The notes below the pieces were generated by a model that did not search any database, was not told where the DNA came from, and saw nothing but the letters and a program-made list of their open reading frames with translations. A stretch of 35,254 bases of DNA from Aquidulcibacter sp. (lineage in GTDB: Bacteria > Pseudomonadota > Alphaproteobacteria > Caulobacterales > Aquidulcibacteraceae): NCBI RefSeq assembly GCF_020253525.1, contig NZ_JADCBK010000056.1:1-35254 (forward strand), in the 5' to 3' direction. This document shows, in pieces, positions 12,479 through 26,119 of the stretch. Position numbers and translations under genes: made by a program. Position 1 is the stretch's first letter; each line of letters opens with the position of its first letter.

Positions 12479-13063
12479 TTAGCGGATATAAGGCAAATCT
12501 GCTGGCATGAGCACGGTATCAATGGCATGGATCAGGCCGTTGCTCGCAGGAATATCAGCCTGAACCACCGTCGCATTATTGACGCGAACACCATTGCGAC
12601 CATCGATCGCGATCGAATGACCTTCCAAAGTTGGGCTCGTCATGGTTAGGCCCATTAGGCCGGAGGACGGTACCCGCCCACTGACGATGTGGTAGGAGAC
12701 AATACGACGCAAGGCCGCGCGATTTTCAACCTTCAGCAATTTTTCCAGCGTTCCCGCTGGCAGATTGGCAAAGGCTTGGTCTGTCGGGGCAAAAACAGTG
12801 ATCGGACCCGACATCGTCAAGCGATCATAGAGACCTGCAGCATTGGCCGCGGCCAACAACGTATTGAACTGGCCATAGCCAGCAGCAACAGTTGCAACAT
12901 CACCTGGACCAACCGCAGGCACAGTCATCACCACCGGATCCGCGGTCACGACGGTTACGGCCTGTGGCTTCGGCGCTTCAATCGTCGTGGTGGAACAAGC
13001 GCCCAAAGTCAGCGCGAGGATCGGCAAGATGGCAAAGGTTTTTTGAAACTTAAAAATCGTCAT
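12479..13063 (-). CDS. Fasciclin-domain lipoprotein
   Basis: A 194-residue lipoprotein. The signal peptide ends in the lipobox LGAC with the lipidated Cys at residue 23. A linker rich in Val, Ala and Pro follows, then one fasciclin (FAS1) domain from about residue 60. It contains FNTLLAAANAAGLYDRL and GPITVFAPTDQAFANLP (the H1-like motif), then IVSYHIVSGRV (the YHxV block) and ASNGLIHAIDTVLMP at the end. FAS1 domains mediate adhesion or envelope interactions. It is monocistronic. An exact GGAAC-N16-CGTT promoter precedes it, so it is a predicted EcfG target induced by general stress. Confidence 0.92.
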   Translation of the reverse strand: MTIFKFQKTFAILPILALTLGACSTTTIEAPKPQAVTVVTADPVVMTVPAVGPGDVATVAAGYGQFNTLLAAANAAGLYDRLTMSGPITVFAPTDQAFANLPAGTLEKLLKVENRAALRRIVSYHIVSGRVPSSGLMGLTMTSPTLEGHSIAIDGRNGVRVNNATVVQADIPASNGLIHAIDTVLMPADLPYIR

Positions 13064-13107
13064 GGGAATATCCTTTAATGGCGGGCAGTCAAAGCTGTCC
13101 GCAAGGC

Positions 13108-13132
13108 AACGTCTGAACTGGCAGCAAGTTCC
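13108..13132 (-). promoter_or_regulatory. EcfG-type promoter of the fasciclin gene
   Basis: On the minus strand GGAAC and CGTT are separated by exactly 16 bases, the consensus of EcfG (general stress sigma factor) promoters. The -10 element ends 45 bases before the ATG at 13063. Exact match. Confidence 0.75.
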
Positions 13133-13144
13133 CCCGATTGTCGG

Positions 13145-14422
13145 TTAGCGAAGCTTTTGCAGCAATTCAGGAATATCGATCAGAGCAAAAGCCACTGAAG
13201 AATCAGCCACGCCGTAGGGTAAGAGTATCTTGCTACTATTACGCAGTGCGCCGCAGGCATAGACCACATTGGGAACATAGCCATTGCGGCCTCGATCGCT
13301 GGGGGCCAAGATGGGCTCTGCCGTACGACCCAATACGATGCGCGGATCTTTCTTGTCGAGCAACAGGGCCCCCATTGCATATTTTCGCATCGCGCCCACG
13401 CCATGGGTAAGCACCAAAAACCCCTCGTCCAACTCAATCGGAGAGCCGCAATTGCCAGTCTGGACAAGGTCCCAGAGAAATTTTGGGCTCGCAATCATCT
13501 CGCCCTTATCCCAATGCAAGAGCGTGTCAGACTGCATGAAGAAATGACTCTCGCCATCATAACGGCCCAGCATGGCATAGGCCCCATCAAGCCGACGGGG
13601 AAATAGCGCCATGCCTTTGCCGTCTACGGCCGTCCCCGTCATCGGCTGAAGCTTGAAATCCGTGAAGTTCGAAGTCGTCATCAGCTCTGACCGCACTTCG
13701 AAGCCTGAATAAGCGGTATAGGTACCGTGGTATGTAGAAGGCTGCCCGTCCTCCTCAAACCGAACCATGCGCAGGTCTTCAAGCCCGTTGCGCTGAGCAT
13801 TTGTAACCGGAAAGATGACCGCAGCCGAAATGGGCACTGTGGGCGGTCGCTGAACCGTCACAACACCGTCGCCATCAGGTCCACTAGAATTGGCCGCAAG
13901 CGTTGGGCTGGTTTGAGGCCAAATCTGTAAGGTATCGTCATGGGTCAGAATACCCTCGCGAAATGAGATTGAGGAAATATGCCCTTCCCCCACGTTGCGG
14001 AGTGAAAGAATAAAGCGCAGATCGCCCGGCCGCATGCCAGACTGGTCGGGATGCGCCACGATGGACGGGTTCGTTACCGCTGCTGCGCAATAAGCATATT
14101 CCAGACAGAAAAAAGCGCCGATCAATTCTAAATGAGCGGGACTTAAGGTGTCGCAATCGCCTGCCACTGCCTCACAAATCTTGAGACTGCGCTCGAGGAA
14201 TAGCCCGCGAGTCTCCCAGTGTCGTCCTTTAAAATCTGCGTTCACATAGTCCAAAGCCTGCAGGCAAATGGCTTGGTCGAGGGTCGCCACTGTATGAAAG
14301 ATCCGCCGCGCGCGAGCCAATTGGGTTGGGTGTAGATCGCGTGGCTCTGGTGCGATGTGAAATGGACGGATCACAACCAAAGACGGATCAGGTAAAAGAA
14401 CGCCCTCTAGAAATTGGATCAC
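13145..14422 (-). CDS. GH130-family glycoside phosphorylase/hydrolase
   Basis: A 425-residue protein resembling glycoside hydrolase family 130, the five-bladed beta-propeller phosphorylases and hydrolases acting on beta-linked mannosides. The blocks NPSIVAHPDQ, RFILSLRNVGEGHISSISFR and NGLEDLRMVRFEEDG (the acidic 'ED-R' catalytic motif), then YHGTYTAYSG and GYVPNVVYACG, are what I rely on. Whether it phosphorolyses or hydrolyses is not visible. The GTG start overlaps the GT4 stop (GTGA), so it is coupled to that gene and shares its EcfG-type promoter at 16801. There is no signal peptide, so it is cytoplasmic. Confidence 0.82.
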   Translation of the reverse strand: MIQFLEGVLLPDPSLVVIRPFHIAPEPRDLHPTQLARARRIFHTVATLDQAICLQALDYVNADFKGRHWETRGLFLERSLKICEAVAGDCDTLSPAHLELIGAFFCLEYAYCAAAVTNPSIVAHPDQSGMRPGDLRFILSLRNVGEGHISSISFREGILTHDDTLQIWPQTSPTLAANSSGPDGDGVVTVQRPPTVPISAAVIFPVTNAQRNGLEDLRMVRFEEDGQPSTYHGTYTAYSGFEVRSELMTTSNFTDFKLQPMTGTAVDGKGMALFPRRLDGAYAMLGRYDGESHFFMQSDTLLHWDKGEMIASPKFLWDLVQTGNCGSPIELDEGFLVLTHGVGAMRKYAMGALLLDKKDPRIVLGRTAEPILAPSDRGRNGYVPNVVYACGALRNSSKILLPYGVADSSVAFALIDIPELLQKLR

Positions 14423-16755
14423 ATGGAAAGCCCAATTGGACTGGTGGGCGGGCTAAGTCCGACACCTGTTACAAGCGCCATCGCGCAATTGGCCATCTGG
14501 AGCGCCAATATCGACTCAGCACCTTGATTTCGGTTCACGCCTGTCTCCGTCAAACCATCAAAGCAACCGCCTCGCTGGTCACTCAAGGGCAGACCATTAT
14601 CATTTTCGCCAAAGAACCACGCGTGGGCCGTCTGGGCCATGATCAGCCATTTACTTTGTTTGGTTGCGGCATAAGCAGCGAGGGCCGCGTCAATGGTGGC
14701 ACAGGCCTCAATCGGTTGTTGGTCGAGCAGCCGTGGCGGCGCGAAAGCGACCCCTGGGGTCGAACTTCCCACGGCGCGGAAAAAGCCGTTGGGCGCTTTC
14801 TGAATGGTGTCGAGCCAAGCCAAGGATTTAAGGCCGATGGCCAGCATATCGGGCCGCCCCAGATTGACACCTGCTTCAATCAAAGCCTGCGGTAGGCGGG
14901 CATTGTCATAGGACAAATTGGGCTCCAGCCACTGCCAAGTAGATGCGCTGTGGGTCTCAAATCGCGTCATCAGACCCTCGGCAAACCCGACCAGCATGTC
15001 ATAGACAGCCAGATTATGTGGCTCGACTTGAAGTAACCGGACTGCCCCAAGGATCGTAAAGCACTGGGCTCTCAGAGACCCTAATGTGGCCACCGATGGC
15101 GCGACTTCTTTTGCCAAAGCAATAGCCCACAAGCGAACTTGCTCCTGCTCTGCATTGCAGGCCGTCTCGCCCAGCGCCCAGAAGGTACGACCATTGCTGT
15201 CCGCTGAACCCTTGGCCTCGAGCCAAGTCCGATCATAGCCCATAAAATTGCGGAATGCGTGTGTGCTGGGGTTCCACGCGTGCTGAACAAAGGCCGCATA
15301 GGTGCGCTCTAGATGGTCTAAAGTAGGGTCCTTATGGCCCAATTGTCGAAATCGCTGGATGAGGATGAGCGCGCGTACCGCGTCATCAATACAATAGCCA
15401 TGCGCCCGATTGTCTATGCCATAAGACGCATGCTGCATGATCCCGCAAGCATCTGTCACACGTTGCACGGCCAAGAGTGACGGGAGACTTTGCTCATCCA
15501 GACGCGGAGCCGCCACATGGGCTTCTTGACGACGCGCCATTGCGGTTTGAAAGGCTGCAGCATAGGCCTCAGCAGACCGCTCCCATATTGTGGTGCGCCC
15601 TTTGGTATAAGCCGATTGCCCCGCCGCCAAAAGCTGGTCGGGGTCGCGGAGTAGACGCGTGATGACGCGCGCAAACCCAGCTGAATCGCCAAAATCGACC
15701 AAGGCACCACAGGTCTCATCCACCCATTCGGTTGCGTGCCAAAAAGGCGTAGATATCACCGGTTTGCCCAGCGCAATCGCATAAGCCAACGTCCCGGATG
15801 TGACTTGGGCTTGGTTTAGATAAGGCGTCACATAAATGTCTGCCGCGCTCAGATAGGTCAGCAACAGTGCTTCATCCACAAAGGCATCCACAAAGCGGAT
15901 GTGCTCGGCAACGCCCAAATCTTCCGCTAGCCCAATCAAACCATCGCGGTAAGCCTCCCCGTCCACCCGTTTGAGGTTGGGATGGGTCGCGCCCAAGACG
16001 ACATATAGGGCGTCTGGGTGCGCAGCCACAATTTCAGGCATCGCCGCAATCAATGTCTCGAGTCCTTTGCCGGGCGACAACAAGCCAAAGGTCAATAAAA
16101 CTTTATAGGGGCTGAGGCCCAAGCTTGCTTTAAAGGAATCCGGGCGCGCGAACGGCCGGTCTGGCGTGCCATGCGGACAAATGGTGATCTTCGCCGGGTC
16201 AGCCCCATAAATCTCACCCAACAGGTCGGCACCCTTCTTGGCCATGACAATGACTTGGTCGGCGCGCCGCAAAAGGGCTGCGACCACATGGCGCTGCCCT
16301 TGGGTTGGTGTTTCGATCACAGTATGCATGGTGATGACCACTGGGGCGGTCAGGCGGTCGATCAGATCAAGAATATAGGCGCCGTCAATTCCGCCAAAAA
16401 TCCCAAACTCATGCTGGATCGATATGACGTCGATTCCGAGATGATTGAGGCGGTCAGCAGCCTTACGATAGTCGGATTGTACATGCTGACGGATAAGACA
16501 CAGCGAAGGTTCCTTTGTTAGAGCGTCGTCATCATCCAAAATACGTACAAGCTCACAGGCCCAGCCGTCCAAAAGGTTCAAAGAGCGCTGAACATCAGCT
16601 GTGAAGGTGGCGATCCCACATCGTCTTGGGGGGAAGGTTCCGACAATCGCGACCCGTCTATCTGTTATCGCCGCCGTCTGGGGCAGGAAGCGCAATAGCC
16701 CTTCAAGGCTAGGAAGAAGTGTCGTACGCGGGGCATCAGGGGGAGCGGGCTGCAT
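14419..16755 (-). CDS. GT4 glycosyltransferase fused to an alpha-helical barrel-like domain
   Basis: A 778-residue two-domain protein. Residues about 30-400 are a GT-B retaining glycosyltransferase of family 4: VAIVGTFPPRRCGIATFTAD at the start, LLTFGLLSPGKGLETLIAAM, then TSGTLAYAIALGKPVISTPF near the nucleotide-sugar site. The rest (about 420-770) is helical and resembles six-hairpin glycosidase-like domains (IDDAVRALILIQRF, GRTFWALGETA). I start it at 16755 (MQPAPPDAPR) rather than 16917, because the EcfG-type promoter at 16801-16825 and AAGGA fit only the shorter form. It is coupled to GH130, suggesting synthesis and turnover of a stress-induced, possibly mannose-containing, glycan. Confidence 0.85.
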   Translation of the reverse strand: MQPAPPDAPRTTLLPSLEGLLRFLPQTAAITDRRVAIVGTFPPRRCGIATFTADVQRSLNLLDGWACELVRILDDDDALTKEPSLCLIRQHVQSDYRKAADRLNHLGIDVISIQHEFGIFGGIDGAYILDLIDRLTAPVVITMHTVIETPTQGQRHVVAALLRRADQVIVMAKKGADLLGEIYGADPAKITICPHGTPDRPFARPDSFKASLGLSPYKVLLTFGLLSPGKGLETLIAAMPEIVAAHPDALYVVLGATHPNLKRVDGEAYRDGLIGLAEDLGVAEHIRFVDAFVDEALLLTYLSAADIYVTPYLNQAQVTSGTLAYAIALGKPVISTPFWHATEWVDETCGALVDFGDSAGFARVITRLLRDPDQLLAAGQSAYTKGRTTIWERSAEAYAAAFQTAMARRQEAHVAAPRLDEQSLPSLLAVQRVTDACGIMQHASYGIDNRAHGYCIDDAVRALILIQRFRQLGHKDPTLDHLERTYAAFVQHAWNPSTHAFRNFMGYDRTWLEAKGSADSNGRTFWALGETACNAEQEQVRLWAIALAKEVAPSVATLGSLRAQCFTILGAVRLLQVEPHNLAVYDMLVGFAEGLMTRFETHSASTWQWLEPNLSYDNARLPQALIEAGVNLGRPDMLAIGLKSLAWLDTIQKAPNGFFRAVGSSTPGVAFAPPRLLDQQPIEACATIDAALAAYAATKQSKWLIMAQTAHAWFFGENDNGLPLSDQRGGCFDGLTETGVNRNQGAESILALQMANCAMALVTGVGLSPPTSPIGLSM

Positions 16756-16800
16756 GGACTTGATCCTTATAGCGCCAGCAAAGGCCAGCATGAGTCCATC

Positions 16801-16825
16801 AACGCCAACACGAAAAAACGGTTCC
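16801..16825 (-). promoter_or_regulatory. EcfG-type promoter of GT4-GH130
   Basis: An exact minus-strand GGAAC-N16-CGTT. The expected transcript start leaves a leader of about 40 bases to the ATG at 16755. It lies inside the longer GT4 reading frame, which supports the shorter gene model. Confidence 0.75.
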
Positions 16826-16853
16826 TTGATAAAGCACCTGCGTAAACTGTTTT

Positions 16854-16878
16854 GGAACTTCACACGGGCGGAGGCGTA
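16854..16878 (+). promoter_or_regulatory. EcfG-like promoter of the small ORF-SOD unit
   Basis: GGAAC-N16-CGTA, one base off the consensus at the last position. It ends 22 bases before the ATG at 16901, and is divergent from and 29 bases away from the exact site for GT4-GH130. Confidence 0.5.
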
Positions 16879-16900
16879 ACCCTCCCACAAGGAGACCAAA

Positions 16901-17083
16901 ATGCCCCGCACACCCAAAGTTACTCAAACCAACCCCGCTGAACCGCAGGCAAGTCCCGACAAAAGCAGTATCCTACAGCTCTACGCGCAGGACTTCGACA
17001 GCTGGGAATTTACCGAAGCACAACCGCGCGTGTCCCTCTTTTACGACAGCTTCCCGACCCTCGGAGGTCCCGATGTCACTTGA
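16901..17083 (+). CDS. Small hypothetical protein upstream of SOD
   Basis: A 60-residue protein, not recognised. It is preceded by AAGGAGA at good spacing and by an EcfG-like promoter. The first half is Pro/Gln/Ser-rich and polar (KVTQTNPAEPQASPDKSS), the second half acidic and aromatic (LYAQDFDSWEF, then VSLFYDSFPTLGG). No signal peptide or membrane segment is visible. It overlaps the SOD start by 11 bases, so translation of the two may be coupled. It may be a small stress protein or act mainly as a leader for SOD translation. Confidence 0.55.
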   Translation: MPRTPKVTQTNPAEPQASPDKSSILQLYAQDFDSWEFTEAQPRVSLFYDSFPTLGGPDVT

Positions 17084-17762
17084 AGGACATAGGCTTTCAC
17101 CCGATGAGTCTTTCGGAGTATTCAATCGGTCGAATGGCAGTTTTGTTCTACCAAGTTTGCCCTTTGAACTCTCTGCCCTTGTTCCCGTCACTGGCGTTGA
17201 AACCTTGAGCGTGCACCTCGGCAAGCACCATCAGGCCTATGTCGACGGGGCAAACCGATTGATGGCACCCATGGCCAAAAAGTTTGAAACGGCAGTTGAG
17301 GTCATCCGCTTTGCCCGCAGTATTCAAGCTATTGGGCTCTTAGAACAAGCGGGCCAAACCCTTAACCATGGATTCTTCTGGACGTGCCATCAAGCTGCCG
17401 GCCTCACCCGTCCGGAGGGTAGTCTCGAGATTGCAATTAATGGCAAGTTTGGTGACTTCGCGGGCTTTACCGACGCGGCCATTGCCTTGGGCAAGACTAG
17501 GGTTGGATCTGGCTGGATTTGGCTGGTAGCGGACCAGGAAGGTGCGGTACGCTTGGAGCTGACCCACGATGCCGAGACACTTCTAGACGACCCAAACCTC
17601 GTCGCATTGTTGGTTTGCGACATTTGGGAGCATGCCTATTATCTCGACCGCGATTCCGACCGAGCCGGCTGGATTGATGGTTTCTTCGCACAATTGGCCG
17701 ACTGGTCAATGGCCAAGTCGCGTTATGAATTTGGACTCAGCCGGGAACCAGATGCCGCCTAG
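17073..17762 (+). CDS. sodB: Fe/Mn superoxide dismutase
   Basis: A 229-residue cytoplasmic superoxide dismutase that converts superoxide to peroxide and oxygen. The metal ligands are in the expected places: His in LGKHHQAYVDG, His in NHGFFWTCHQ, and Asp and His in VCDIWEHAYYLD. About 25 extra residues precede the usual start of the domain (FVLPSLPFELSAL). The ATG at 17073 is chosen because GGAGG lies just before it. The Fe-type is suggested by overall similarity, but metal choice is uncertain. A promoter for csbD lies inside its last codons. Confidence 0.92.
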   Translation: MSLEGHRLSPDESFGVFNRSNGSFVLPSLPFELSALVPVTGVETLSVHLGKHHQAYVDGANRLMAPMAKKFETAVEVIRFARSIQAIGLLEQAGQTLNHGFFWTCHQAAGLTRPEGSLEIAINGKFGDFAGFTDAAIALGKTRVGSGWIWLVADQEGAVRLELTHDAETLLDDPNLVALLVCDIWEHAYYLDRDSDRAGWIDGFFAQLADWSMAKSRYEFGLSREPDAA

Positions 17763-17768
17763 CGCGTT
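17744..17768 (+). promoter_or_regulatory. EcfG-type promoter of csbD inside the SOD 3' end
   Basis: An exact GGAAC-N16-CGTT. The -35 lies within the last SOD codons and the -10 just after the stop, 32 bases before the csbD ATG at 17801. Confidence 0.75.
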
Positions 17769-17800
17769 TCATCTTCACCTCCCAACCAAAGGCGAAGATT

Positions 17801-18028
17801 ATGAATAACGACACCATCAAAGGCCAATTCGATCAATTCATCGGCGCTGCCAAGTCCCAATGGGGCAAGTTGACCGATGATGACTTTATGCGCGTCAGCG
17901 GCGATCTGCAAAAGCTTAAAGGTGCGGTCCAAGAGCGTTATGGCATCACCAAAGAAGAGGCTGAACAGCAAGTCAGCAAATGGGAATCCAGTCGTCCCCG
18001 CGACATGACGGATCGTTCTGGACACTAA
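17801..18028 (+). CDS. CsbD-family stress protein
   Basis: A 75-residue hydrophilic protein of the CsbD family, small four-helix proteins strongly induced by general stress in many bacteria. The signature is visible: DTIKGQFDQFIGAAKSQWGKL, split, followed by GDLQKLKGAVQERYGITKEE. The molecular function is unknown for the family. It has its own exact EcfG-type promoter, overlapping the end of SOD, and is followed by a hairpin with a T-run. CsbD genes are regular members of EcfG regulons, which supports the promoter prediction. Confidence 0.93.
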   Translation: MNNDTIKGQFDQFIGAAKSQWGKLTDDDFMRVSGDLQKLKGAVQERYGITKEEAEQQVSKWESSRPRDMTDRSGH

Positions 18029-18144
18029 CCGATCACGCCCACCGGCATCCGACATGGTCCTCTAGCTGGATGCCGCATAGGGCCTGAACCACGTATCAAA
18101 CACCACGGTCCCCACCGTGATCCCCCTGTTTGCTACTTGGTCTT

Positions 18145-18183
18145 GGCCGTTGCACTCGACCCCGAGTGTAGCGGCCAATTTTT
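18145..18183 (+). terminator. Intrinsic terminator after csbD
   Basis: A 14-base imperfect stem (GGCCGTTGCACTCG against CGAGTGTAGCGGCC) with a 4-base loop is followed by AATTTTT. An 8-base stem (CGGCATCC/GGATGCCG, 18043-18075) lies closer to the gene. Confidence 0.55.
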
Positions 18184-18219
18184 GGGGCGCGTCGACCGCA
18201 GAAAAAGCCAAAGCGGCCC

Positions 18220-18310
18220 AACTCCCTCACCTTGGTGGGGGAGTTGTCTGTTTGACAAATGACAATTTGAATAAGGGAGAGAATGCCCCCTCCCAATTGG
18301 GAAGGGGCAT
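18220..18310. repeat. Pair of GC-rich hairpins between convergent genes
   Basis: Two stem-loops lie between csbD and the convergent lipoprotein gene: AACTCCC/GGGAGTT-type at 18220-18245, and ATGCCCC-CTCCC-AATT-GGGAAGGGGCAT at 18283-18310. The second begins 8 bases after the lipoprotein stop and may end its transcript. Confidence 0.45.
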
Positions 18311-18317
18311 GATTGGT

Positions 18318-18671
18318 CTACAAACCGCGTGGGGATTGATCGCGCGCCCAGCAGGTACGATTGCTGTTGGGGATAACGTAGTAATAGGCACCATTACGAT
18401 CCCGGTAGGTCGGACCGCGACGAGCGGTCGCGCATTCATCCCGCCTTTGGTCCAAGCTATAACCACGTACAGCGCCTGCCGTGCCGCCGATGACGGCACC
18501 AACAACTGCGCCATTGCCCGCGTCGCCACTGCCCGTGTTATTGCCAATGACCGCACCGGCGAGCGCACCAATTGCGGCACCGGCCCCTGCATTACGTTCC
18601 ATATTGCCGGTCGTAGTGCAGGCACCCAAGATACTGGCGAGGGCGACTAGTCCAAATGTGAGAGTCTTCAT
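18318..18671 (-). CDS. Glycine-zipper lipoprotein
   Basis: A 117-residue lipoprotein (start at 18671; a longer form from 18683 adds four residues). The lipobox is LGAC, with Cys at residue 18. A glycine zipper follows: AGAGAAIGALAGAVIGNNTG, then NGAVVGAVIGGTAGAVRGY, the pattern of the 17 kDa antigen/SlyB-like 2TM domain that inserts in or lies against the outer membrane. The tail is basic with two Cys (ECATARRG, NRTCWARDQ). It lies 48 bases downstream of the DUF1328 gene and is probably cotranscribed from that gene's EcfG-type promoter, making it a likely envelope-stress output. Confidence 0.85.
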   Translation of the reverse strand: MKTLTFGLVALASILGACTTTGNMERNAGAGAAIGALAGAVIGNNTGSGDAGNGAVVGAVIGGTAGAVRGYSLDQRRDECATARRGPTYRDRNGAYYYVIPNSNRTCWARDQSPRGL

Positions 18672-18718
18672 GTTGATTTCCATTTCGATGTGAGGGGGAG
18701 GTAGGATGTGATTTTGGA

Positions 18719-18892
18719 CTAGCTCGGCAGTCTGCCTCGTAGGGCAGCGGCAATGGCACTAATGAGAAACAGGACCGCAAAGACGAAGAAGAGGATCTTG
18801 GCGATGTCGACTGAAGCGCTAGCGATGCCACCAAAACCCAGCACCCCTGCAATCAACGCCAAAATCAAGAAACTTATTGACCAACGTAACAT
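18719..18892 (-). CDS. DUF1328 small membrane protein
   Basis: A 57-residue protein with two membrane segments: [20 protein letters not shown], then [21 protein letters not shown]. The GFGGIA turn between them is the hallmark of DUF1328 (YtjA family). Length is typical. Function is unknown, but the family recurs in stress regulons. An exact EcfG-type promoter lies 55 bases upstream. It is the first gene of a probable unit with the glycine-zipper lipoprotein. Confidence 0.88.
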
Positions 18893-18946: not shown

Positions 18947-18971
18947 AACGCTGGCTCGGCACATACGTTCC
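18947..18971 (-). promoter_or_regulatory. EcfG-type promoter of DUF1328
   Basis: An exact minus-strand GGAAC-N16-CGTT, between the kinase stop (18995) and the DUF1328 ATG (18892). Its position allows a leader of about 45 bases. Confidence 0.75.
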
Positions 18972-18994: not shown

Positions 18995-20665
18995 TCAAGG
19001 GTTCACCAGAAGGAAGCTCACCCCGACACACGACCCGCCACCATCAAAAGGAGACAGTGTCAGCCTACTGCCCAATTGACGTCCAAAGGCCGTCAACAAA
19101 CTATGACCCGTGCCAAGCTTGGACGCCGTCTCAGCCCAGCCAATCCCGGTGTCACAAATTTGTAGACACACCAGTCCGTGCGCATCGACCCGCAAGGAAA
19201 CATGAACCTGCCCGGTCGCTTCACCCGGGAAAGCGTGGATGATGGCGTTGGTCAGCGCTTCGACCACAAACATAGAGATCGGCACCGCCAAGTCGGTTGC
19301 AATCGGCAAGGGGTCGCAATCCCATTCTATTTTGATCCGCTGCATCTGGACCGGGTAGCTGCGTCGGATTTGCGCACACAGATCGGCCAGCAAAAGCTGC
19401 ACATCAATGGTCGAGGCATGCGCCAAATCATCACTTTCAACGATCAAACGCTGCACCAAGGCCAAGGCCGTCACCCGCGCTTGCACTTGTTCTAAAGGCG
19501 CACGCAGCTCTGGCGTCTCGAGTTGACGGGCCTGCAAGCTCAATAAGCTCAAGACAACTTGGATGTTGTTTTTGACCCGATGATGCAGCTCGCGAACCAA
19601 AGCATCTTTTTGCTTGGCGATTTGAATAAGATGGCGATCGCGCAGATCGACACGGGCTGCCATGGCAACCATTTCCTCATGAAGCTCAAGCAATTCTTGG
19701 GGTTCAAACGCGTCACCTAAATGATCTGCGGGTACAAGGCCTGCGCCATAATGCTTAGCAATCGCGCGAAGTCGCTCAATCGGGCGGATGGCCCAATATT
19801 CCATCGCGAACCAAGTGGCTGCACCAGCAAACAACAAAGCGATCAGCGGCAGCGCAATGTCGGTTGCCATATGAAAGAAGGTGGAGGAGTACAACACCTC
19901 GTCGGGCATTGCGTAACGCACCGAAAGATGACCCGGAACGAGGAGGTAGGAAGAAGTTGACCACGTCTTGCCTTGATTATCACGTGTGACCTCAATCGGG
20001 TCACGCGCGCGCGCCTGCGGTGTCGCGTGCTGCGCATCAACCAAAGTCAAACTTGCGCGTCTGTCCAGCATGCGACGATTTAGATCTTGCTCGAGACGGT
20101 TCAGATCCAAACCGAATACGATATGGCCATCAGGATTGGCTTGGGGATCGACAAGCCCTAGCGCGACGATGAGGCTTGGTTGGCCCGTCGCGCGATCAAT
20201 TACTGGGCCGGCGGCAGACAGTTCTTGGCCAGGGGATAATTCACGCCACCAGATTCGGTCACTGACATTGCTTGTCACCGAGATTGGGTGGGCGGCGCAA
20301 AGAATTTTGCCTTTTGAGTCGATCCTTGCGAGGTTGGAAACAAAGGGCATGCCGACCAGCGCAATGGCTAGGGTTTCACGGCATGTTACAGAACCTTTTC
20401 GAACGTCATCGCGGCTGCTTAAGCGCACCAAGGCTTGCTGGCCCGTTTCAATGACATGCATGCCCTGCTCGCCAGCGATTGAGACCTGATCTGTGAGACT
20501 AGACTGAACGACTTGGCGATCATGCGATAGACGGGCAAAGGCTTGTGCAAAACTGATCAAAAAGACCGGGACCATAGCTCCGCCCACGGCAACCAAGAGC
20601 AATCCCCGTAAGGACTGGCTTTGAATCCATGTCCGCCAAAAGGTAGAGATACGCGCGGGCAACAT
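18995..20665 (-). CDS. Membrane sensor histidine kinase (HisKA_2/HWE type), GSR partner
   Basis: A 556-residue sensor kinase. Transmembrane segments at about 21-42 and 266-290 flank a 220-residue periplasmic sensor region of Cache type. A HAMP-like linker follows. The phosphoacceptor block is RELHHRVKNNIQVVLSLLSL (His362), typical of HisKA_2 kinases. The ATPase domain shows EALTNAIIHAF (N box), CDTGIGW (G1) and GTGHSLL (G2). It overlaps the ecfG stop (TAATG) and belongs to the nepR-ecfG transcript. By position it is the cognate PhyK-like kinase that phosphorylates PhyR. The signal is unknown; Cys95 and Cys123 in the sensor region are possible redox residues. Confidence 0.9.
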   Translation of the reverse strand: MLPARISTFWRTWIQSQSLRGLLLVAVGGAMVPVFLISFAQAFARLSHDRQVVQSSLTDQVSIAGEQGMHVIETGQQALVRLSSRDDVRKGSVTCRETLAIALVGMPFVSNLARIDSKGKILCAAHPISVTSNVSDRIWWRELSPGQELSAAGPVIDRATGQPSLIVALGLVDPQANPDGHIVFGLDLNRLEQDLNRRMLDRRASLTLVDAQHATPQARARDPIEVTRDNQGKTWSTSSYLLVPGHLSVRYAMPDEVLYSSTFFHMATDIALPLIALLFAGAATWFAMEYWAIRPIERLRAIAKHYGAGLVPADHLGDAFEPQELLELHEEMVAMAARVDLRDRHLIQIAKQKDALVRELHHRVKNNIQVVLSLLSLQARQLETPELRAPLEQVQARVTALALVQRLIVESDDLAHASTIDVQLLLADLCAQIRRSYPVQMQRIKIEWDCDPLPIATDLAVPISMFVVEALTNAIIHAFPGEATGQVHVSLRVDAHGLVCLQICDTGIGWAETASKLGTGHSLLTAFGRQLGSRLTLSPFDGGGSCVGVSFLLVNP

Positions 20666-21327
20666 TAGCTACGGTTGGGGTCAAGTCGGCGGAGTTCGCC
20701 CAAGATGGCCTCGCTAGCCTGTGCACTGGTGGGTCTGACCTGACCAAGGTCACGTTGTCGATTATCAACATAGTCGCGCAAAAAGGCTCTGCCGCGCGCA
20801 ACCCGGCTTTTAACCGTGCCAGTGGCGCAGCCAATAATTTGTGCTGCCTCTTCATAGGCAAAGCCGCCAGCACCAACCAAGATCAGCGCTTCACGCTGTT
20901 GTGCCGGCAAAGCTTGGAGGCCTGCGGCCAATTCGGCCAAAGCCATATGGCCTTGTTGGGCGGGTTCACAGACCAAGAGCTTCTCAGCGGCATCTGGGTC
21001 CCAAGGGGCCACGCGCCGTTGCTTGCGACACCAAGAATAATAGTGGTTGCGCAGGATGGTAAAAATCCAAGCCTTAAAGTTGGTGTTGGGCAAATAGCTC
21101 GCACGCGCCGCCCAAGCTTTTGCCAAAGCCTCTTGTGCCAAATCATCGGCCAGATCAGCCCGCCCACACAGACCGCGGGCGAACGCGCGTAGCGGTGGGA
21201 TAACCAAGACTAGCTTTGAGGCGAATTCAGCCGCCAGCGTGCGCGCCAACTCGACGTCGACTTCCGGCAGTTTAATCGGCTGAATTGCGACACCGCGACG
21301 GGCAAAATACAAACGTTCTCCGGTCAT
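20665..21327 (-). CDS. ecfG: EcfG general stress sigma factor
   Basis: A 220-residue ECF sigma factor of the EcfG group. Sigma region 2 includes LADDLAQEALAKAWAARASY and FKAWIFTILRNHYYSWCRKQ. Region 4 includes LPAQQREALILVGAGGFAYE and AQIIGCATGTVKSRVARGRA. It directs RNA polymerase to GGAAC-N16-CGTT promoters and is held inactive by NepR until PhyR is phosphorylated. The ATG overlaps the nepR stop (ATGA), and its stop overlaps the kinase start. There are about 30 extra residues at the N-terminus compared with the shortest homologues. Confidence 0.95.
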   Translation of the reverse strand: MTGERLYFARRGVAIQPIKLPEVDVELARTLAAEFASKLVLVIPPLRAFARGLCGRADLADDLAQEALAKAWAARASYLPNTNFKAWIFTILRNHYYSWCRKQRRVAPWDPDAAEKLLVCEPAQQGHMALAELAAGLQALPAQQREALILVGAGGFAYEEAAQIIGCATGTVKSRVARGRAFLRDYVDNRQRDLGQVRPTSAQASEAILGELRRLDPNRS

Positions 21328-21530
21328 GAGCTTGGTTCGATTTCTGCGGCATCTGGTGCAGCCTCTAGAGCAGCATCAATCTGGGCGAGAAGATCGCTGA
21401 AATCATCGGGCACAGGTTCGAGTAGGACTTCGCGGTATAGGGTGCGAAGGCCCGCCACAATCGGGTCATCATTCAGGTCAGGGGTAACATCATGTGGTGT
21501 ATCGATTGGCGGAAGTGGCGACTGAGGCAC
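21324..21530 (-). CDS. nepR: NepR anti-sigma factor
   Basis: A 68-residue acidic protein with the NepR core PIVAGLRTLYREVLLEPVPD, then FSDLLAQIDAAL (residues 23-54). The two helices around the EPVPD hinge clamp EcfG. Phosphorylated PhyR offers a sigma-like decoy that removes NepR. It is the first gene of nepR-ecfG-kinase, behind an exact EcfG-type promoter, so the locus is positively autoregulated and also makes its own inhibitor. The tails are short and disordered, as usual. Confidence 0.93.
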   Translation of the reverse strand: MPQSPLPPIDTPHDVTPDLNDDPIVAGLRTLYREVLLEPVPDDFSDLLAQIDAALEAAPDAAEIEPSS

Positions 21531-21642
21531 TCAGCGAGTCCGTTCTGTGATAAGGCGCGTCTCGATCCCGCTGGATCAAGGTGGCGCGAGCAAGTCTTCA
21601 GCAGGGTCGGGATAGGTTTCAGGCCACCCCAGATGGGGTTTT

Positions 21643-21667
21643 AACGCGGCCGCTTCCAAATCGTTCC
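21643..21667 (-). promoter_or_regulatory. EcfG-type promoter of nepR-ecfG-kinase
   Basis: An exact minus-strand GGAAC-N16-CGTT. The -35 is back to back with the plus-strand phyR promoter, only 8 bases apart. The leader to nepR is about 105 bases. Confidence 0.8.
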
Positions 21668-21675
21668 ACAGGACG

Positions 21676-21700
21676 GGAACTTATTTCCAAGATGGGCGTT
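21676..21700 (+). promoter_or_regulatory. EcfG-type promoter of phyR
   Basis: An exact GGAAC-N16-CGTT ending 29 bases before the phyR ATG. The gene has AGGAGA as ribosome site just before its start. Confidence 0.8.
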
Positions 21701-21729
21701 GTCGCGGTGCAAGCCTTGAGGAGAATTCC

Positions 21730-22488
21730 ATGTCAACAGTAGCCAATTTCGGCCCACACCTTCCCATCCTGCGCCGTTATGCGCGCGCGATGACCGGTTC
21801 GCAAGTCAGCGGGGATGCCTGTGTTCGAGCGGCATTAGAGGCCATTCTGGCAGCACCCACCCAAATCTCGACGGCCTATCCGCCGAAAGTAGAATTGTTC
21901 CGATTATTCCACGCGGTTTGGACCTCAGTCGCCCCAGCGCTGGACCCAAAATTGCGACCCGAGCGAAGTGCCCTTCTCCTCACGGCAGTTGAAGGCTTTA
22001 GTCATGATGAAGCTGGGATTGTCCTTGGCAAATCGGCTTTGGTTGTCGGGGAAGAAATTCAGCAGGCGCGCGCTGCCATCCAATCGGAATCGATTGGTCA
22101 AGTCCTCATCATCGAAGATGAATCGATCATTGCCATGCACTTGCAAGCGCTGGTGGAAGACCTTGGCCACCGCGTGATCGGTGTTGCCACAACGCGGCGT
22201 GAGGCCGTCCACCTTGTTGAGCAAACCCAACCCGATCTGGTCCTCGCCGATATACGCTTGGCTGACGGTTCATCTGGGATTGATGCGGTGGCAGACATTC
22301 TGACCCTTTGTGATGTGCCAGCGATTTTCATCACAGCTTTTCCCGAGCGTCTGCTGAGCGGGGAGACATTAGAACCGACCTATTTGATCACCAAGCCTTT
22401 CCTGCCTGAAACGGTGACGGCAACGATCAGCCAGGCCATGTTCTTCCATCGCGAAACCCAGCGGGAGCTGTCGGCAAACCGCGCCTAA
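21730..22488 (+). CDS. phyR: PhyR, sigma-factor-mimic response regulator
   Basis: A 252-residue protein with the PhyR architecture. Residues 1-118 form a degenerate EcfG-like sigma domain (RYARAMTGSQVSGDACVRAA; LLTAVEGFSHDEAGIVLG) that binds NepR rather than DNA. Residues about 124-242 are a receiver with acidic Glu129/Asp130, phosphoacceptor Asp174 in DLVLADIRL, Thr202 in FITAFPERL and Lys222. The ITAFPE block is the PhyR-specific form of this region. Phosphorylation frees the sigma-like domain to capture NepR. It is divergent from nepR-ecfG and autoregulated by an EcfG-type promoter. Confidence 0.96.
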   Translation: MSTVANFGPHLPILRRYARAMTGSQVSGDACVRAALEAILAAPTQISTAYPPKVELFRLFHAVWTSVAPALDPKLRPERSALLLTAVEGFSHDEAGIVLGKSALVVGEEIQQARAAIQSESIGQVLIIEDESIIAMHLQALVEDLGHRVIGVATTRREAVHLVEQTQPDLVLADIRLADGSSGIDAVADILTLCDVPAIFITAFPERLLSGETLEPTYLITKPFLPETVTATISQAMFFHRETQRELSANRA

Positions 22489-22518
22489 GTTTTCTCTTTC
22501 CACCATCGTCGAAATGCC

Positions 22519-22553
22519 AAGGCCCGACCAATTCATTGGCCGGGCCTTTGTCT
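22519..22553. terminator. Bidirectional terminator between phyR and RcnB-like gene
   Basis: AAGGCCCG-A-CCAAT-TC-ATTGG-C-CGGGCCTT forms a 13-pair stem followed by TGTCTT, 31 bases after phyR. The opposite strand can serve the convergent RcnB-like gene. Confidence 0.7.
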
Positions 22554-22579
22554 TAATACCAGAAGCGCAAAGCTTGCGC

Positions 22580-23161
22580 TTAACGTGGACTATTGATGAT
22601 TACTTGCGCGATGAGGCCACCAACAATGGCCGCCAATAGATAATCACCTCGATCATCCTCGACCCAGCGATAGCCGCGAGGCGGAGCGCGCAGATTGTGG
22701 CCACGGTAATCAAGTTCGACGAAGCGTTGGTTGTAACCGCCCAGGCTTTGCCCGCGCGTCCAAGGACGATAGCCCATTGAGAAGCCGCGCTGACGCATTT
22801 GCCATTGGGACGGCTGGCCGTAGCGCCATTGGTTGCGATTATTGTAGTAACCATTGTGGACGCCTTGATCCCAAGTCGCACCCCGGCGGCTATCACGCCA
22901 AGACTTGCGGTCGCGATTTAGATCTTGGCGATCCTGTCGAACGGCGGCCTCGCGCTGATCAAGGCGATCATCGCGGCGTTCCATCGTGCGATCTTGAGCG
23001 TCAGAGCGCTCGCGACGACTAGGCTGGCCATTTTGATCGACCCAACCACCCCCTGCCCGGCCGAACTCAATGCGAGCAGGCTGAGCCGTAGCGGCAGGAA
23101 CAAAAAAGGCAGGCGAAAGCACAGCCGCCGCCAAGAGATAGGCGCATATTTGACGTTTCAT
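22580..23161 (-). CDS. RcnB-like periplasmic protein
   Basis: A 193-residue exported protein with an Arg/Asp-rich central region (DRTMERRDDRLDQREAAVRQ) likely to form a coiled coil. The C-terminal block reads LRAPPRGYRWVEDDRGDYLL, then AAIVGGLIAQVI, as in RcnB/DUF-type periplasmic proteins linked to metal homeostasis in E. coli. Many alphaproteobacterial relatives have no known metal role. The start at 23161 (MKRQICAYLLAAAVL) gives a clean signal peptide and has AAGGA upstream; the longer frame from 23188 does not. It lies 33 bases after the entericidin-like gene and is probably cotranscribed from the same EcfG-type promoter. Confidence 0.78.
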   Translation of the reverse strand: MKRQICAYLLAAAVLSPAFFVPAATAQPARIEFGRAGGGWVDQNGQPSRRERSDAQDRTMERRDDRLDQREAAVRQDRQDLNRDRKSWRDSRRGATWDQGVHNGYYNNRNQWRYGQPSQWQMRQRGFSMGYRPWTRGQSLGGYNQRFVELDYRGHNLRAPPRGYRWVEDDRGDYLLAAIVGGLIAQVIINSPR

Positions 23162-23194
23162 AGGATTTGTCCTTTTGGACGCGAGCACGTGGCT

Positions 23195-23422
23195 CTAGTT
23201 TGAGTAAGGCTTGGCGCGCGCAGCTGCCTTGCGATCAGCTTCGTCTTTCGCGTCTTGCTTAGCTTTGGAAGTCGCGATGTCGGATTGAACTTTGCCAGCT
23301 GCATCGCTGACCACTTCGCCACCAGCGCTCACGTCTCGGCCGGCACCACGAATGGTGTTACAGGCTGCAAACGAGGTGACGCTCAACAATGTCAAACACA
23401 AGATCAGGATTTTCGGTTTCAT
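23195..23422 (-). CDS. Entericidin-like lipoprotein with extended tail
   Basis: A 75-residue lipoprotein. The signal peptide ends in SFAAC (Cys21), followed directly by CNTIRGAGRDVSAGGEVV, the entericidin A/B family motif (CNTxxGxGxDxxxxG). Classical entericidins end about there; this one adds some 30 charged residues (KAKQDAKDEADRKAAARAK). In enterobacteria these small lipoproteins are stationary-phase membrane-active factors; the role here is unknown. It has an exact EcfG-type promoter and is followed by the RcnB-like gene. Confidence 0.87.
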   Translation of the reverse strand: MKPKILILCLTLLSVTSFAACNTIRGAGRDVSAGGEVVSDAAGKVQSDIATSKAKQDAKDEADRKAAARAKPYSN

Positions 23423-23471
23423 GGTTTTAGTCCTTAGGCCGCTGGCAAGATTGCTCAGCCTATGGAAGAGA

Positions 23472-23496
23472 AACGCTTCAATGCGGCCTTGGTTCC
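23472..23496 (-). promoter_or_regulatory. EcfG-type promoter of the entericidin-like gene
   Basis: An exact minus-strand GGAAC-N16-CGTT, 49 bases before the ATG at 23422 and 14 bases after the end of the phytochrome gene. Confidence 0.75.
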
Positions 23497-23509
23497 AAAC
23501 CCGACCGGA

Positions 23510-26092
23510 TTAGCTGGCGATAAAGGGCTCAATGCCCCCCAAAGCTTTGGCAATCGAATCCTTTGTATAGGGCTTCGTGATAAATGGCCGCGCGTTTTGG
23601 TCCGAAGGATAATTAATGCCACTGCCATAGCCAGTCGCAAAGATGAACGGCACCTCCATCTCAAACAGACGATCGGCAATCGGGAAGCTGTTTTGGCTGC
23701 CCAAGTTAACGTCCAACAAGGCAAAACGCGGCATTTCGCGATCTAGTATAGCCAGTGCATCCCGCACATTGCTGGCAACCGACACGCGCTCTGCGCCGAG
23801 ACTCAGCAACATGGCTTCGGCGTCGAGGGCGATGATAAGATTATCTTCAACCAGCAAAACATGGCCCGTCAATCGGCCCACCTGAGGCGCATCGGCCGTC
23901 GTCATGGCGGGATTAATCGGTTTTTCCTCCATGACGATGAAGTGCGCTGGTACAGAAAAGCTTACCCGCACGCCAGTAGCCAAAAAGGCAATCGCCGACT
24001 CCCCGCCTAACTCGTGGGGGATAGAGGCTTCAATAATGGTCGAGCCAAAACCTCGATGGGTTGGGACCGTGACGGGTGGGCCACCGATTTCTACCCAACG
24101 GGCGATTAAGTCCCCTTGAGGGCCGATCTGCCAAGAGATATCGACATGGCCCCCTTCCCCACAAAAAGCACCATATTTAGCCGCATTGGTAATGAGCTCA
24201 TGGATAACCAAGGCAACGGTCGAGAAGGCTTGGGGGATCAAAAGCACTGGCGGGCCCGACATGTGGATGGTATTCCACGCCGGCCCCAAATAGGCTTCAG
24301 CTTCGGTTGCAATCAAGGTTTCAAAGGAACCAGGGCCCCAATTCTTGGCAGTAATCTGATCATGGGCGCGCGCTAGAGCATGGACACGATCGCCCAGAAC
24401 ATCGGCAAACGTATTGATGTCTTTAGCATTAACGCGACTTTGTGAGATCAGACCGCGGATCAGGCCCAAGATGTTCCGCACCCGGTGGTTAAGCTCGGCA
24501 ATCAGAAGGTCTTGCGTCTGGCTGGCCGCCATTCGCTCTGCTTCGGTTGCACTTATCAAGCGCAATACCACCTCCAATACCGTGACCTGAAGGGCTTCGG
24601 CGGCTCGCAACTCCGCATCTGTCCATTGCGTACTCTTGCCGTGCAATGTTTCTTGCCAGGCTTTAAAGCTCTTGCGCGGGCTGATGCGGACTTCGCCTTG
24701 GCCAAGCTCTTCAACGGCTTTGGTCGGATCACCCGCCCATTTCACCGTCGATGCCGTCTCTTTACGAAAGAAGACAAGATAGTCGCGGGGGATGGTGGAA
24801 ATCGGGATCGCCAACATACCCGCGGCACGATCCTTAAAGCTATTCGCAGACGGGCAAACGCTTTCAATCTCATTGCTGCTATAAACGCGGCTCGCAGAGA
24901 CACCATCCAGAAACTTCCGTAGCACCTCAAACTCTTCCAAGGTAGGCGTAGAGCCCTTGAGCGTGACACTCCCATCTATACAAAAGGCTGTTCCATCGCA
25001 GGGGACGATATTCACTAATTGATTGGCCAATTGTGCGACGTCCTTGGTTGCAACCCCCGCTAGAGCAACAGAGGCCAAAAGGTCAGCTGTGATCTTGCGC
25101 GTCGAGGCCTCAAACGTGATCAGTTCTTCCCGCTCACATCGATCAATCAAAAGGGCCAAGATTTGGCCGAAAACTTCAGCAGTTGTGCGCCGCTCATAGC
25201 CGATGGTGCGCGCAGTCATATGGTGACATGCAATCAAGCCCCAAAGCGCCCCATTTTTCAAAAGCGAAACCGTCATGGTAGCCGCAACGCCCATATTGCG
25301 GAGATATTCAAGATGGATGGGCGAGTGCGAACGGAGGCTGCTCATGGACAGATCGATAGGCGTGTCGACTAAAGTCTTCGTGCTGACGATCGGGGACGGC
25401 GGACTATCGATATCTAGCAGGGTGCGGATTGGGTTGCGGACCAAAAGCGCCCGAGCTTGCTGGGGAATGTCGGTTGCTGGATAGCGCAGACCCAGAAACG
25501 ATTCCATGGATGGACGACATCGTTCTGCAATCACTTCGCCCGAGCCATCAGGATGGAATTGATAAATCATAACCCGATCATAGCCAGTCAGAGCCTGCAC
25601 CAGTCGGACCGCTTCATGTGTCAGATCGCTCACATGGTGCTGATGCTGCACATGGTCGATCATCGACCGGACCATCGAGCCCGCGTTAAGCTCCCCCGAT
25701 TCCTCGCTGAGCTCTGCCTCCAGCAGAATCAAATCTCCGCTGGTATGAACAGCCAAGTCATAGGCAGGGCCACCCTCTTGCAACACAGTGGCAAACAAGC
25801 GCTCGATCACATCCTGCCGATAAAGGGACGACAGGCGATTGCGGATCGCATGCAAAGCTTCGGGCATGATCAAGGCCGTGAGATTTGCCCCCAAAATCTC
25901 TTCCAACGGCTGGCTCAGAAAGTCCCCGCAATTGGCCGAGGCCTGCTCAATAATCCAGTCTGGCGTTAGCACGAGTAGAAAGCCGCCGTTTTGGATCGAA
26001 TTGATCTCATGGATCCGCTCCTTGTCGCAATTGGTCAGGGTTGGCGGTTCGGGGGGAAGGGTTGATGAGGCAAAGGTCTGGGGCATAGGCAT
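23510..26092 (-). CDS. bphP: Bacteriophytochrome HWE histidine kinase with receiver domain
   Basis: About 860 residues. A PAS domain (GGFLLVLTPDWIIEQAS) is preceded by NCDKERIH, whose Cys is placed like the biliverdin-binding Cys of bacteriophytochromes. The GAF domain has PATDIPQQARALLVRNPIR and HLEYLRNMGVAATMTVSL. A PHY domain follows (WTDAELRAAEAL at its end). The kinase is HWE/HisKA_2 type with ELNHRVRNILGLIRGL and HELITNAAKYGAF. A C-terminal receiver (HVLLVEDNLIIALDAEAM, then FALLDVNLG with the acceptor Asp) ends in FITKPYTKDS. It follows the heme oxygenase gene. ATG 26092 has GAGG upstream; ATG 26086 and TTG 26104 are alternatives. Confidence 0.92.
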   Translation of the reverse strand: MPMPQTFASSTLPPEPPTLTNCDKERIHEINSIQNGGFLLVLTPDWIIEQASANCGDFLSQPLEEILGANLTALIMPEALHAIRNRLSSLYRQDVIERLFATVLQEGGPAYDLAVHTSGDLILLEAELSEESGELNAGSMVRSMIDHVQHQHHVSDLTHEAVRLVQALTGYDRVMIYQFHPDGSGEVIAERCRPSMESFLGLRYPATDIPQQARALLVRNPIRTLLDIDSPPSPIVSTKTLVDTPIDLSMSSLRSHSPIHLEYLRNMGVAATMTVSLLKNGALWGLIACHHMTARTIGYERRTTAEVFGQILALLIDRCEREELITFEASTRKITADLLASVALAGVATKDVAQLANQLVNIVPCDGTAFCIDGSVTLKGSTPTLEEFEVLRKFLDGVSASRVYSSNEIESVCPSANSFKDRAAGMLAIPISTIPRDYLVFFRKETASTVKWAGDPTKAVEELGQGEVRISPRKSFKAWQETLHGKSTQWTDAELRAAEALQVTVLEVVLRLISATEAERMAASQTQDLLIAELNHRVRNILGLIRGLISQSRVNAKDINTFADVLGDRVHALARAHDQITAKNWGPGSFETLIATEAEAYLGPAWNTIHMSGPPVLLIPQAFSTVALVIHELITNAAKYGAFCGEGGHVDISWQIGPQGDLIARWVEIGGPPVTVPTHRGFGSTIIEASIPHELGGESAIAFLATGVRVSFSVPAHFIVMEEKPINPAMTTADAPQVGRLTGHVLLVEDNLIIALDAEAMLLSLGAERVSVASNVRDALAILDREMPRFALLDVNLGSQNSFPIADRLFEMEVPFIFATGYGSGINYPSDQNARPFITKPYTKDSIAKALGGIEPFIAS

Positions 26093-26094
26093 TA

Positions 26095-26119
26095 AACGCC
26101 TCAAGGGTTGATTGGTTCC
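26095..26119 (-). promoter_or_regulatory. EcfG-type promoter of the phytochrome gene, inside the heme oxygenase 3' end
   Basis: An exact minus-strand GGAAC-N16-CGTT. The -10 ends just 2 bases before the ATG at 26092, so a transcript starting 8-9 bases further on would begin at or near the next in-frame ATG (26086). Function is therefore less certain than for the other sites. Confidence 0.5.

Follow-up and report, generated by a model that had tools for sequence, protein, structure and literature searches.

How does a general stress response, switch and outputs together, come to occupy a single block of DNA that some members of a genus carry and others lack? The question is raised by the freshwater bacterium Aquidulcibacter sp. 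(hereafter G000; 3.49 Mb in a draft of 167 contigs), whose contig C120, taken in its entirety at 35,254 bases, is the window analysed here. It holds a PhyR-NepR-EcfG locus of the general stress response (GSR) type, set among genes that are preceded by promoters of the EcfG type, the whole measuring roughly 16 kb. Comparison of sequences makes us fairly confident that this is a self-contained EcfG/NepR/PhyR regulon block, which is moved, exchanged and lost as a unit and spreads horizontally. A fuller proposal stands only slightly on the favourable side of even: that a complete GSR (two sensors, the switch and a regulon of local promoters) constitutes a transferable cassette of Aquidulcibacter, whose native block is lost or exchanged and which here travels as cargo of an integrative tRNA-Ser island.

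The first indication came from an earlier note on this DNA, which had listed eight exact copies of GGAAC-N16-CGTT, each correctly oriented before a gene, and had put the chance expectation for the window at about 0.3. Both statements hold. The window contains nine exact matches, while shuffled sequences give a mean of 0.26 and a maximum of 2, none of 100 shuffles reaching nine. Eight of the matches lie in the block on the strand of the gene that they precede, the genes being confirmed with Pfam: fasciclin (13108..13132, minus strand), GT4-GH130 (16801..16825, minus), csbD (17744..17768, plus, overlapping the stop codon of the superoxide dismutase gene), DUF1328 (18947..18971, minus), nepR-ecfG-kinase (21643..21667, minus), phyR (21676..21700, plus), entericidin-rcnB (23472..23496, minus) and phytochrome (26095..26119, minus). 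The note had overlooked a near-match, GGAAC-N16-CGTA at 16854..16878 on the plus strand, an EcfG-like promoter candidate divergent from that of GT4-GH130, which would serve a 60-aa open reading frame (ORF) and the superoxide dismutase gene; its core is identical in four of four aligned genomes. The ninth exact match, at 1708, falls outside the block; it is palindromic, and the same sequence recurs at G000:C72:120-144. The match adjoins one of two intergenic repeats (92-358 and 1750-1885) that occur in many copies genus-wide, and window positions 1-12500 have 80 matches in G000 in total.

Exact matches number 21 in the whole genome, 8 in the block and 13 in the remaining ~3.48 Mb; the presence of 8/21 within 13.0 kb has a binomial P of 7e-15. 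As background we took the same half-sites at spacers 18-28, which give 121 matches in G000, a mean of 11.0 per spacer. Exact sites outside the block are near this background (13 vs 11.0), with no clear enrichment elsewhere, and the local density described in the note thus survives a genome-wide scan with the exact motif. As possible outside targets, the 12 exact sites found on further contigs were mapped relative to ORFs and then set aside. One is the C72 palindrome; five (L002, L007, L122, L123, L124) lie within ORFs of more than 400 aa, and three (L001, L006, L125) in ORFs of 120-217 aa, two ORFs at L001 having no Pfam match. Three are upstream of genes: the L004 site, within a MarR ORF and ahead of NlpC/P60; the L005 site, ~165 bp upstream of COX1; and the L121 site, 66 bp upstream of a GFO/IDH/MocA oxidoreductase, which we take to be a chance occurrence and which is not exact in G008, G007, G004, G002 or G005.

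Could the eight sites in the block be the work of chance as well, or belong to another extracytoplasmic function (ECF) sigma factor, their clustering having nothing to do with EcfG? Other ECF sigma genes are present in G000, yet we consider this explanation extremely improbable. The motif agrees with the published EcfG consensus (GGAAC...GTT in PMC6599016; also PMC8103513). Its excess over background is seen in genomes with the switch as a group: in a set of 61, split at a PhyR match of E 1e-10, the 38 phyR+ genomes hold 1138 N16 sites where 673 are expected, and the 23 phyR- genomes 360 where 339 are expected (G048, at 8e-30, was counted as phyR+; G010 and G012 were counted as phyR- though their ECF proteins match at E 6e-24 and 1e-25). 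At group level, therefore, motif excess goes with the phyR switch. Sites also precede the same genes in a genome of another genus of the family (G013, locus L042), where seven exact copies stand before fasciclin, GT4, csbD, DUF1328, nepR, phyR and entericidin.

The pattern of substitution points in the same direction. When the block sequences of G000, G007, G004 and G008 are aligned, 69% of G000 positions are the same in all four genomes. The cores of the nine promoters are invariant in 80/81 columns, against 90/144 for the spacers and 339/540 for the 30-base flanks on each side, a contrast that we read as selective conservation of the cores while the spacers drift. The single exception is the -10 element of the DUF1328 promoter, which is exact in G000, G007 and G004 and reads AGTT in G008. 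The fasciclin promoter keeps its core with a diverged spacer across the four genomes, and those of GT4-GH130, csbD, nepR, phyR, entericidin and phytochrome are likewise exact and conserved. From CGTT (or CGTA) to the start codon there are 22-54 nucleotides (nt) in seven of the nine promoters and 112 nt in that of nepR. The -10 box of the phytochrome promoter ends only 2 or 8 nt from the start codon in all four genomes (window 26084-26098), and a leaderless or nearly leaderless phytochrome transcript is therefore predicted.

Is the block a fixed property of the genus? Nine genomes of it were compared (G000-G008). The carriers are G000, its sister by native flanks Aquidulcibacter paucihalophilus TH1-2 (G008, locus L045), Hyphomonadaceae bacterium UKL13-1 (G004, L040) and two metagenome-assembled genomes of the same genus (G007, L039; G001, L041); together they hold 39/117 of their exact sites in the block, G004 having eight block sites. 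With a 19.2-kb query (window 11500-30700), the stretch from 12408 to ~27747 is found in collinear order, and with unchanged edges, in G007 and G008, and is matched as two pieces in G004 and as three contigs in G001. The conservation of synteny that the note had proposed to check thus extends to four relatives, but G002, G003, G005 and G006 lack the block. In these four genomes, 99-100% complete, the query finds only short fasciclin-like matches of the block DNA; the best PhyR match is E 6e-8 or weaker, those among the matches listed, both in G003, being to the receiver domain only, and the best EcfG match is E 1.7e-15 or weaker, vs 2.3e-132 or better in carriers.

The native position of the block can be recognised in G004, G007 and G008, where it lies between a left gene of the 792-aa type without Pfam match and crp, followed by an alpha/beta hydrolase gene (the gene identities at this locus were checked on the G000 copy). 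Loss sites are recognisable in three of the four block-less congeners. The left gene is joined to the hydrolase gene in G003, with no block between them, and in G005 and G002 a longer deletion includes the left gene. The G005 junction keeps the hairpin that otherwise separates left gene and fasciclin, together with ~35 last fasciclin codons, and we interpret this 3' remnant as a deletion stump. A side observation concerns G013, where the 3' end of crp stands beside fasciclin (L042:1-1000), so that the block order is circularly permuted with respect to Aquidulcibacter; possible explanations are an intermediate in circular form and an earlier rearrangement.

In G000 itself the block is missing from its native site: on contig C100 the sequence passes from the left gene through the hairpin to the hydrolase gene within ~120 bp. 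The block on C120, in turn, is bounded by pieces of the native neighbours. At its left end a 17-bp stretch (12408..12424, plus strand) consists of the last codons and the stop of the native 792-aa left-neighbour gene, which has no Pfam match; the native neighbour terminates in this stretch in G004, G007, G008 and on G000:C100, and homology to congeners begins at 12408. The hairpin, a presumed terminator read from the sequence, follows at 12438..12464, between native neighbour and fasciclin. At the right end lies a 5' piece of a P-type ATPase gene (28686..28872, plus strand; PF00690; homology 28701-28872). The gene is cut off at ~28,872 here; its counterpart in G004, an 827-aa ORF with full ATPase domains, follows crp at the native locus. 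With scars of native genes at both ends of the block, the junctions show, as we read them, that a native segment of ~16.5 kb was transplanted in G000. A target-site duplication was sought, and no 9-mer is shared, direct or inverted, between 12301-12480 and 28541-28940.

Where did the transplanted segment come from? The simplest answer would be an ordinary, vertically inherited GSR locus with many local targets, subject to lineage-specific loss, whose own copy G000 has rearranged. The same native position of the block in G004, G007 and G008 accords with it, as do the stump in G005, which attests at least one loss, and the clustering of part of the targets in other alphaproteobacteria. However, the G000 and G008 copies of the block are only 79% identical, against 93% for the native left flank. 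When five segments from the flanks and the tRNA side are concatenated, the resulting tree places G000 and G008 as sisters with a support of 97 (two inner nodes are weak, at 58 and 63). Four candidate trees were compared for each segment in approximately unbiased (AU) and Shimodaira-Hasegawa (SH) tests. By the AU test the left and right native flanks reject the pairing of G000 with G007 (p 4e-67 and 0.006), and the four segments of the block all reject that of G000 with G008 (p 1e-5, 8e-4, 4e-30 and 1e-89). In three of the four block segments the best tree is (G000,G007),G008,(G004,G001), and the fourth ties with another tree pairing G000 and G007, so that in each of the four segments the G000 block sides with G007 and not with its sister. 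The discordance would be explained by a single transfer into G000 from a lineage resembling G007. A trace that speaks for rearrangement of G000's own copy, and against a donor, is the 63-bp stretch of C120 containing the hairpin, which matches the empty native site (G000:C100:34597-34659) at 89% and by eye is closer to it than to G007, G004 or G008; the stretch is too short to settle origin. On balance we regard purely vertical descent as unlikely.

The surroundings of the block in G000 suggest how a transferred segment might have been housed. The block ends ~4 kb from a tRNA-Ser(GGA) gene (32882..32971, minus strand), whose 3' end points toward the accessory DNA. Between them (28897-32881) lie an SSB-containing sequence (28897..29662, plus), 93% identical to the tRNA-Ser locus of the sister at G008:C79, and a putative RlxS-like relaxase gene (31006..32661, plus), which matches NF041267 at E 8e-51 but with 173 bits against a cut-off of 850, the Pfam Relaxase model also staying below its cut-off. 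For three congeners, G002, G006 and G007, homology ends at window 32869-32882, where the tRNA gene has its 3' end (in G007 the contig also ends there). In G001, G003, G005 and G008 it continues into the accessory side for 0.1-2 kb or more, covering that side partly or entirely as far as the relaxase-like gene, and nothing in G004 matches the tRNA-Ser locus of G000. G008 has genes for ArdC, a PD-(D/E)XK nuclease and a UvrD-type helicase in the same slot, left of the SSB gene, in place of the block. The SSB and relaxase-like sequence recurs near tRNA-Ser(GGA) in G005 (C69), near tRNA-Ser(GCT) on G008:C72 and ~11 kb from tRNA-Ser(GCT) in G004 (C1:2219908-2233634), and G003 keeps an SSB fragment. 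The block is probably cargo of a tRNA-Ser island here.

On a contig separate from C120, 26 bp of the tRNA-Ser end are repeated exactly (G000:C63:29733-29758), ~190 bp from a tyrosine-integrase gene; this copy is a candidate for the far att site. The integrase is of the phage type (G000:C63:28341-29543), and its neighbours are TonB receptors and a PhoD phosphatase. Considered as a possible other end of the island, C63 matched none of the loci compared. An integrase was also sought beside the tRNA-Ser gene of G005, and the gene there is DUF6236. The idea that C120 is a plasmid was rejected: there is no terminal overlap, and its right end is conserved in most congeners. Elsewhere near these sites, a second GH130 gene lies close to tRNA-Ser(GGA) on G007:C4 (L154:1963-3132), and to the left of the block the window carries, at 6527-8732, an arsenic-type group of genes for an ArsR-like HTH protein, an SBF-family transporter, ArsC and an FMN reductase, 91% identical to G008:C117.

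With so fragmented a draft, in which the native site is empty within the same assembly, it must be asked whether the block contig is chimeric or was binned from another Aquidulcibacter species. The left side of C120 is indeed a patchwork with respect to the sister, spread over three G008 contigs, one piece (3739-5654) being only 81% identical, which tells against a genuine insertion. Yet the other pieces match G008 at species level (88 and 91% on the left, 87-93% on the right), and the segment beyond tRNA-Ser has no second copy longer than ~100 bp in G000. The junction areas searched are linked by no exact direct or inverted repeat of at least 9 bp, native genes are cut at both block ends, and G000 has a completeness of 99.96% with a contamination of 0.26%. 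We therefore hold an assembly or binning artefact to be more doubtful still than vertical descent.

Transfer of a self-contained regulon remains the reading that we prefer, and the following observations weigh against one or another part of it. The tie between motif and switch has exceptions among single genomes: G046, phyR-, is in excess (27 vs 15.7), and the phyR+ genomes G009, G026, G054 and G055 show no motif excess. Sites outside the block, summed over the five carriers, number 78 where 59.3 are expected (P = 0.011), and a few extra-block targets per genome are likely for this reason; the exact-motif test is, moreover, blind to degenerate EcfG promoters elsewhere. Inside the block, the genes for Dps and heme oxygenase have no recognisable EcfG promoter, and in G013 the phytochrome gene is inverted and without an exact site. 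As to transfer, the SH test, the weaker of the two, agrees with the AU test elsewhere but excludes nothing for the right flank (0.27) and for the block segment 17050-20500 (0.29). G008 and G004 are 87-95% identical at ~14.9-16.9 and 23.9-27.7 kb vs ~80% in the flank, which suggests further exchange between these two lineages. Finally, crp adjoins the block in G008 but stands 7-12 kb off in G007 and G004.

Nor is the density of sites around phyR without parallel. By a rough measure of clustering, sites near phyR over the genome-wide excess above background, G000 has 8 of 10.0, and G037 (7 of 11.5), G041 (6 of 9.8), G014 (6 of 9.5) and G056 (5 of 6.3) are nearly as clustered; dispersed relatives include G028 (4 of 23.3), G053 (5 of 22.9), G058 (5 of 19.9) and G049 (3 of 18.9). 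Twenty loci of 20 kb around phyR from relatives in the family and order (L091-L110) hold 1-7 exact sites each, and L043, L044 and L046-L058, part of them shorter, hold 0-5 near phyR. The earlier note had presented the clustering of switch and outputs as unusual: it is confirmed for this locus, but partial clustering near phyR is normal in the class, and the G000 cluster is the high end of a spread, not unique in clustering.

What does the block encode? Its centre is the switch. NepR (21324..21530, minus strand; PF18557 at E 2.7e-10, over the cut-off) is the anti-sigma factor, and PhyR (21730..22488, plus; PF22029, PF22233 and PF00072; NF006623 at 304 bits, cut-off 240) the anti-anti-sigma response regulator, which combines a sigma-like domain with a receiver. 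A side observation is that phyR of G008 is interrupted by a 2-base gap, a frameshift (G008:C160:18654-19404, L045), which reflects either genuine decay of the gene in this type strain or an error of sequencing. The EcfG-type (ECF15) sigma factor (20665..21327, minus) has Pfam ECF regions 2 and 4; among the NCBIfam models it passes only that of the ECF superfamily, the sigma subfamily and equivalog models staying below cut-off. Its gene adjoins nepR and is homologous and syntenic to the phyR-side sigma gene in 10/10 loci compared, the protein being 91-97% identical in the four block-bearing congeners. A PhyK-like HisKA_2/HWE histidine kinase (18995..20665, minus; PF07568/PF07536) follows. It has an HRVKN box and PhyR has the receiver aspartate, which we take to be hallmarks of their families. 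The second kinase is a bacteriophytochrome with HWE kinase and receiver (23510..26092, minus, start at 26092 or 26086; PF08446, GAF, PHY, HWE_HK, REC), in which the chromophore-cysteine region and the DIP and PRxSF motifs, presumably diagnostic of the family, are present; a heme oxygenase gene (26101..26727, minus; PF01126) lies beside it.

The remaining genes of the block are mostly its presumed outputs. To the left of the switch lie, on the minus strand, the genes for a fasciclin-domain protein (12479..13063; PF02469), a GH130 glycoside phosphorylase (13145..14422; PF04041) and a GT4 glycosyltransferase (14419..16755, start taken at ATG 16755; PF13692/PF00534), and on the plus strand the 60-aa ORF (16901..17083; no Pfam match, with a 47-80% identical counterpart in three of three congeners searched), Fe/Mn superoxide dismutase (17073..17762; PF00081/PF02777) and a CsbD-like stress protein (17801..18028; PF05532). 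A glycine-zipper protein (18318..18683; PF13488) and the small DUF1328 protein (18719..18892; PF07043) follow on the minus strand. To the right are an entericidin-like lipoprotein (23195..23422, minus; PF08085) with an RcnB-domain protein downstream (22580..23188, minus; PF11776), Dps (27253..27735, minus; NF006975 at 181 bits, cut-off 114) and a Crp/Fnr-type regulator (27931..28677, plus; PF13545), which moved together with the block.

What could be the working of such a unit? The two kinases encoded in the block, the PhyK-like HisKA_2 protein and the red-light-type phytochrome of the HWE class, would phosphorylate PhyR; phosphorylated PhyR would capture NepR, and the EcfG thus freed would fire nine promoters, all within the block. 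Their targets would be the switch itself, the phytochrome sensor, fasciclin, GT4-GH130, superoxide dismutase, CsbD, DUF1328 with the glycine-zipper protein, and entericidin with RcnB. Since the recognisable promoters are local, the whole response could be lost, moved or gained by a single DNA event, and in G000 that event may have been the arrival of the segment, out of a G007-related lineage, in a genomic island at tRNA-Ser. Its regulation, its light input and its transfer are all inferred here from gene content and sequence comparison.

If this is true, the clustering of the regulon would result from selection favouring co-transfer, making it a selfish regulon, and not from co-regulation. 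The block would amount to a minimal GSR provided by nature: its direct regulon could be read off, and removed, in one piece, sister species that naturally lack the GSR would be at hand for comparison, and the acquisition of an entire global regulon could be put to the test. The presence of both phytochrome and heme oxygenase in the block points to a possible light input in these bacteria, which occur with bloom-forming cyanobacteria (PMC5712168, PMC10653850). Literature was searched for PhyR/EcfG regulons that are mobile or carried on islands; among the papers listed, no title or abstract opening describes one, which is weak evidence of absence, and a search for phytochrome together with HWE, PhyR and the general stress response returned nothing. 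The main texts of PMC12700997 and PMC10653850 make no mention of 'general stress' or PhyR.

How, then, does the locus compare with known systems? It resembles the PhyR-NepR-EcfG GSR of Caulobacter (SigT), Methylobacterium and Sphingomonas melonis Fr1 in its partner-switch genes and in the divergent phyR and nepR-ecfG with autoregulatory promoters, an arrangement described for known GSR loci (PMC8103513). The hallmarks found here are PhyR, NepR, an EcfG-type sigma factor beside nepR, an HWE/HisKA_2 kinase, and GGAAC-N16/17-CGTT promoters on phyR and nepR-ecfG. The genes regulated by EcfG in S. melonis include a glycosyltransferase and a glycosidase, and GSR regulons are large, with 166 likely direct targets in that species (PMC6599016) and 490 genes in the regulon of M. 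extorquens (PMC8103513). Unlike in the classic GSR, exact promoters are concentrated here in one block and near background elsewhere, and the block is missing from some congeners. For a GSR sigma factor carried outside the main chromosome, on an accessory replicon, there is a precedent in EcfG2 of Rhizobium etli, a plasmid-borne paralogue (PMC8103513). There, however, it is only the sigma paralogue, the identified NepR being chromosomal, whereas here switch, sensors and regulon lie together.

Light-responsive kinases of the HWE/LOV kind feed PhyR in Erythrobacter. Photoreceptor HWE/HisKA2 kinases have further been tied to the GSR in Brucella (LOVHK) and Rubellimicrobium (RT-HK; PMC4438053, PMC12148442). 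Unlike these, the putative photoreceptor here is a bacteriophytochrome beside a heme oxygenase and under an EcfG-type promoter of the block, and its link to PhyR is inferred. In its setting the locus is akin to tRNA-integrated islands and integrative mobilizable elements: accessory DNA abuts tRNA-Ser at its 3' end, an SSB gene and a relaxase-like one are present, and the copy of the tRNA end lies beside an integrase gene on another contig. It would differ from known tRNA islands in that its cargo would be a whole stress regulon, and its two putative ends are here on separate contigs. The class of the system remains PhyR-NepR-EcfG; what is new is its packaging and proposed mobility.

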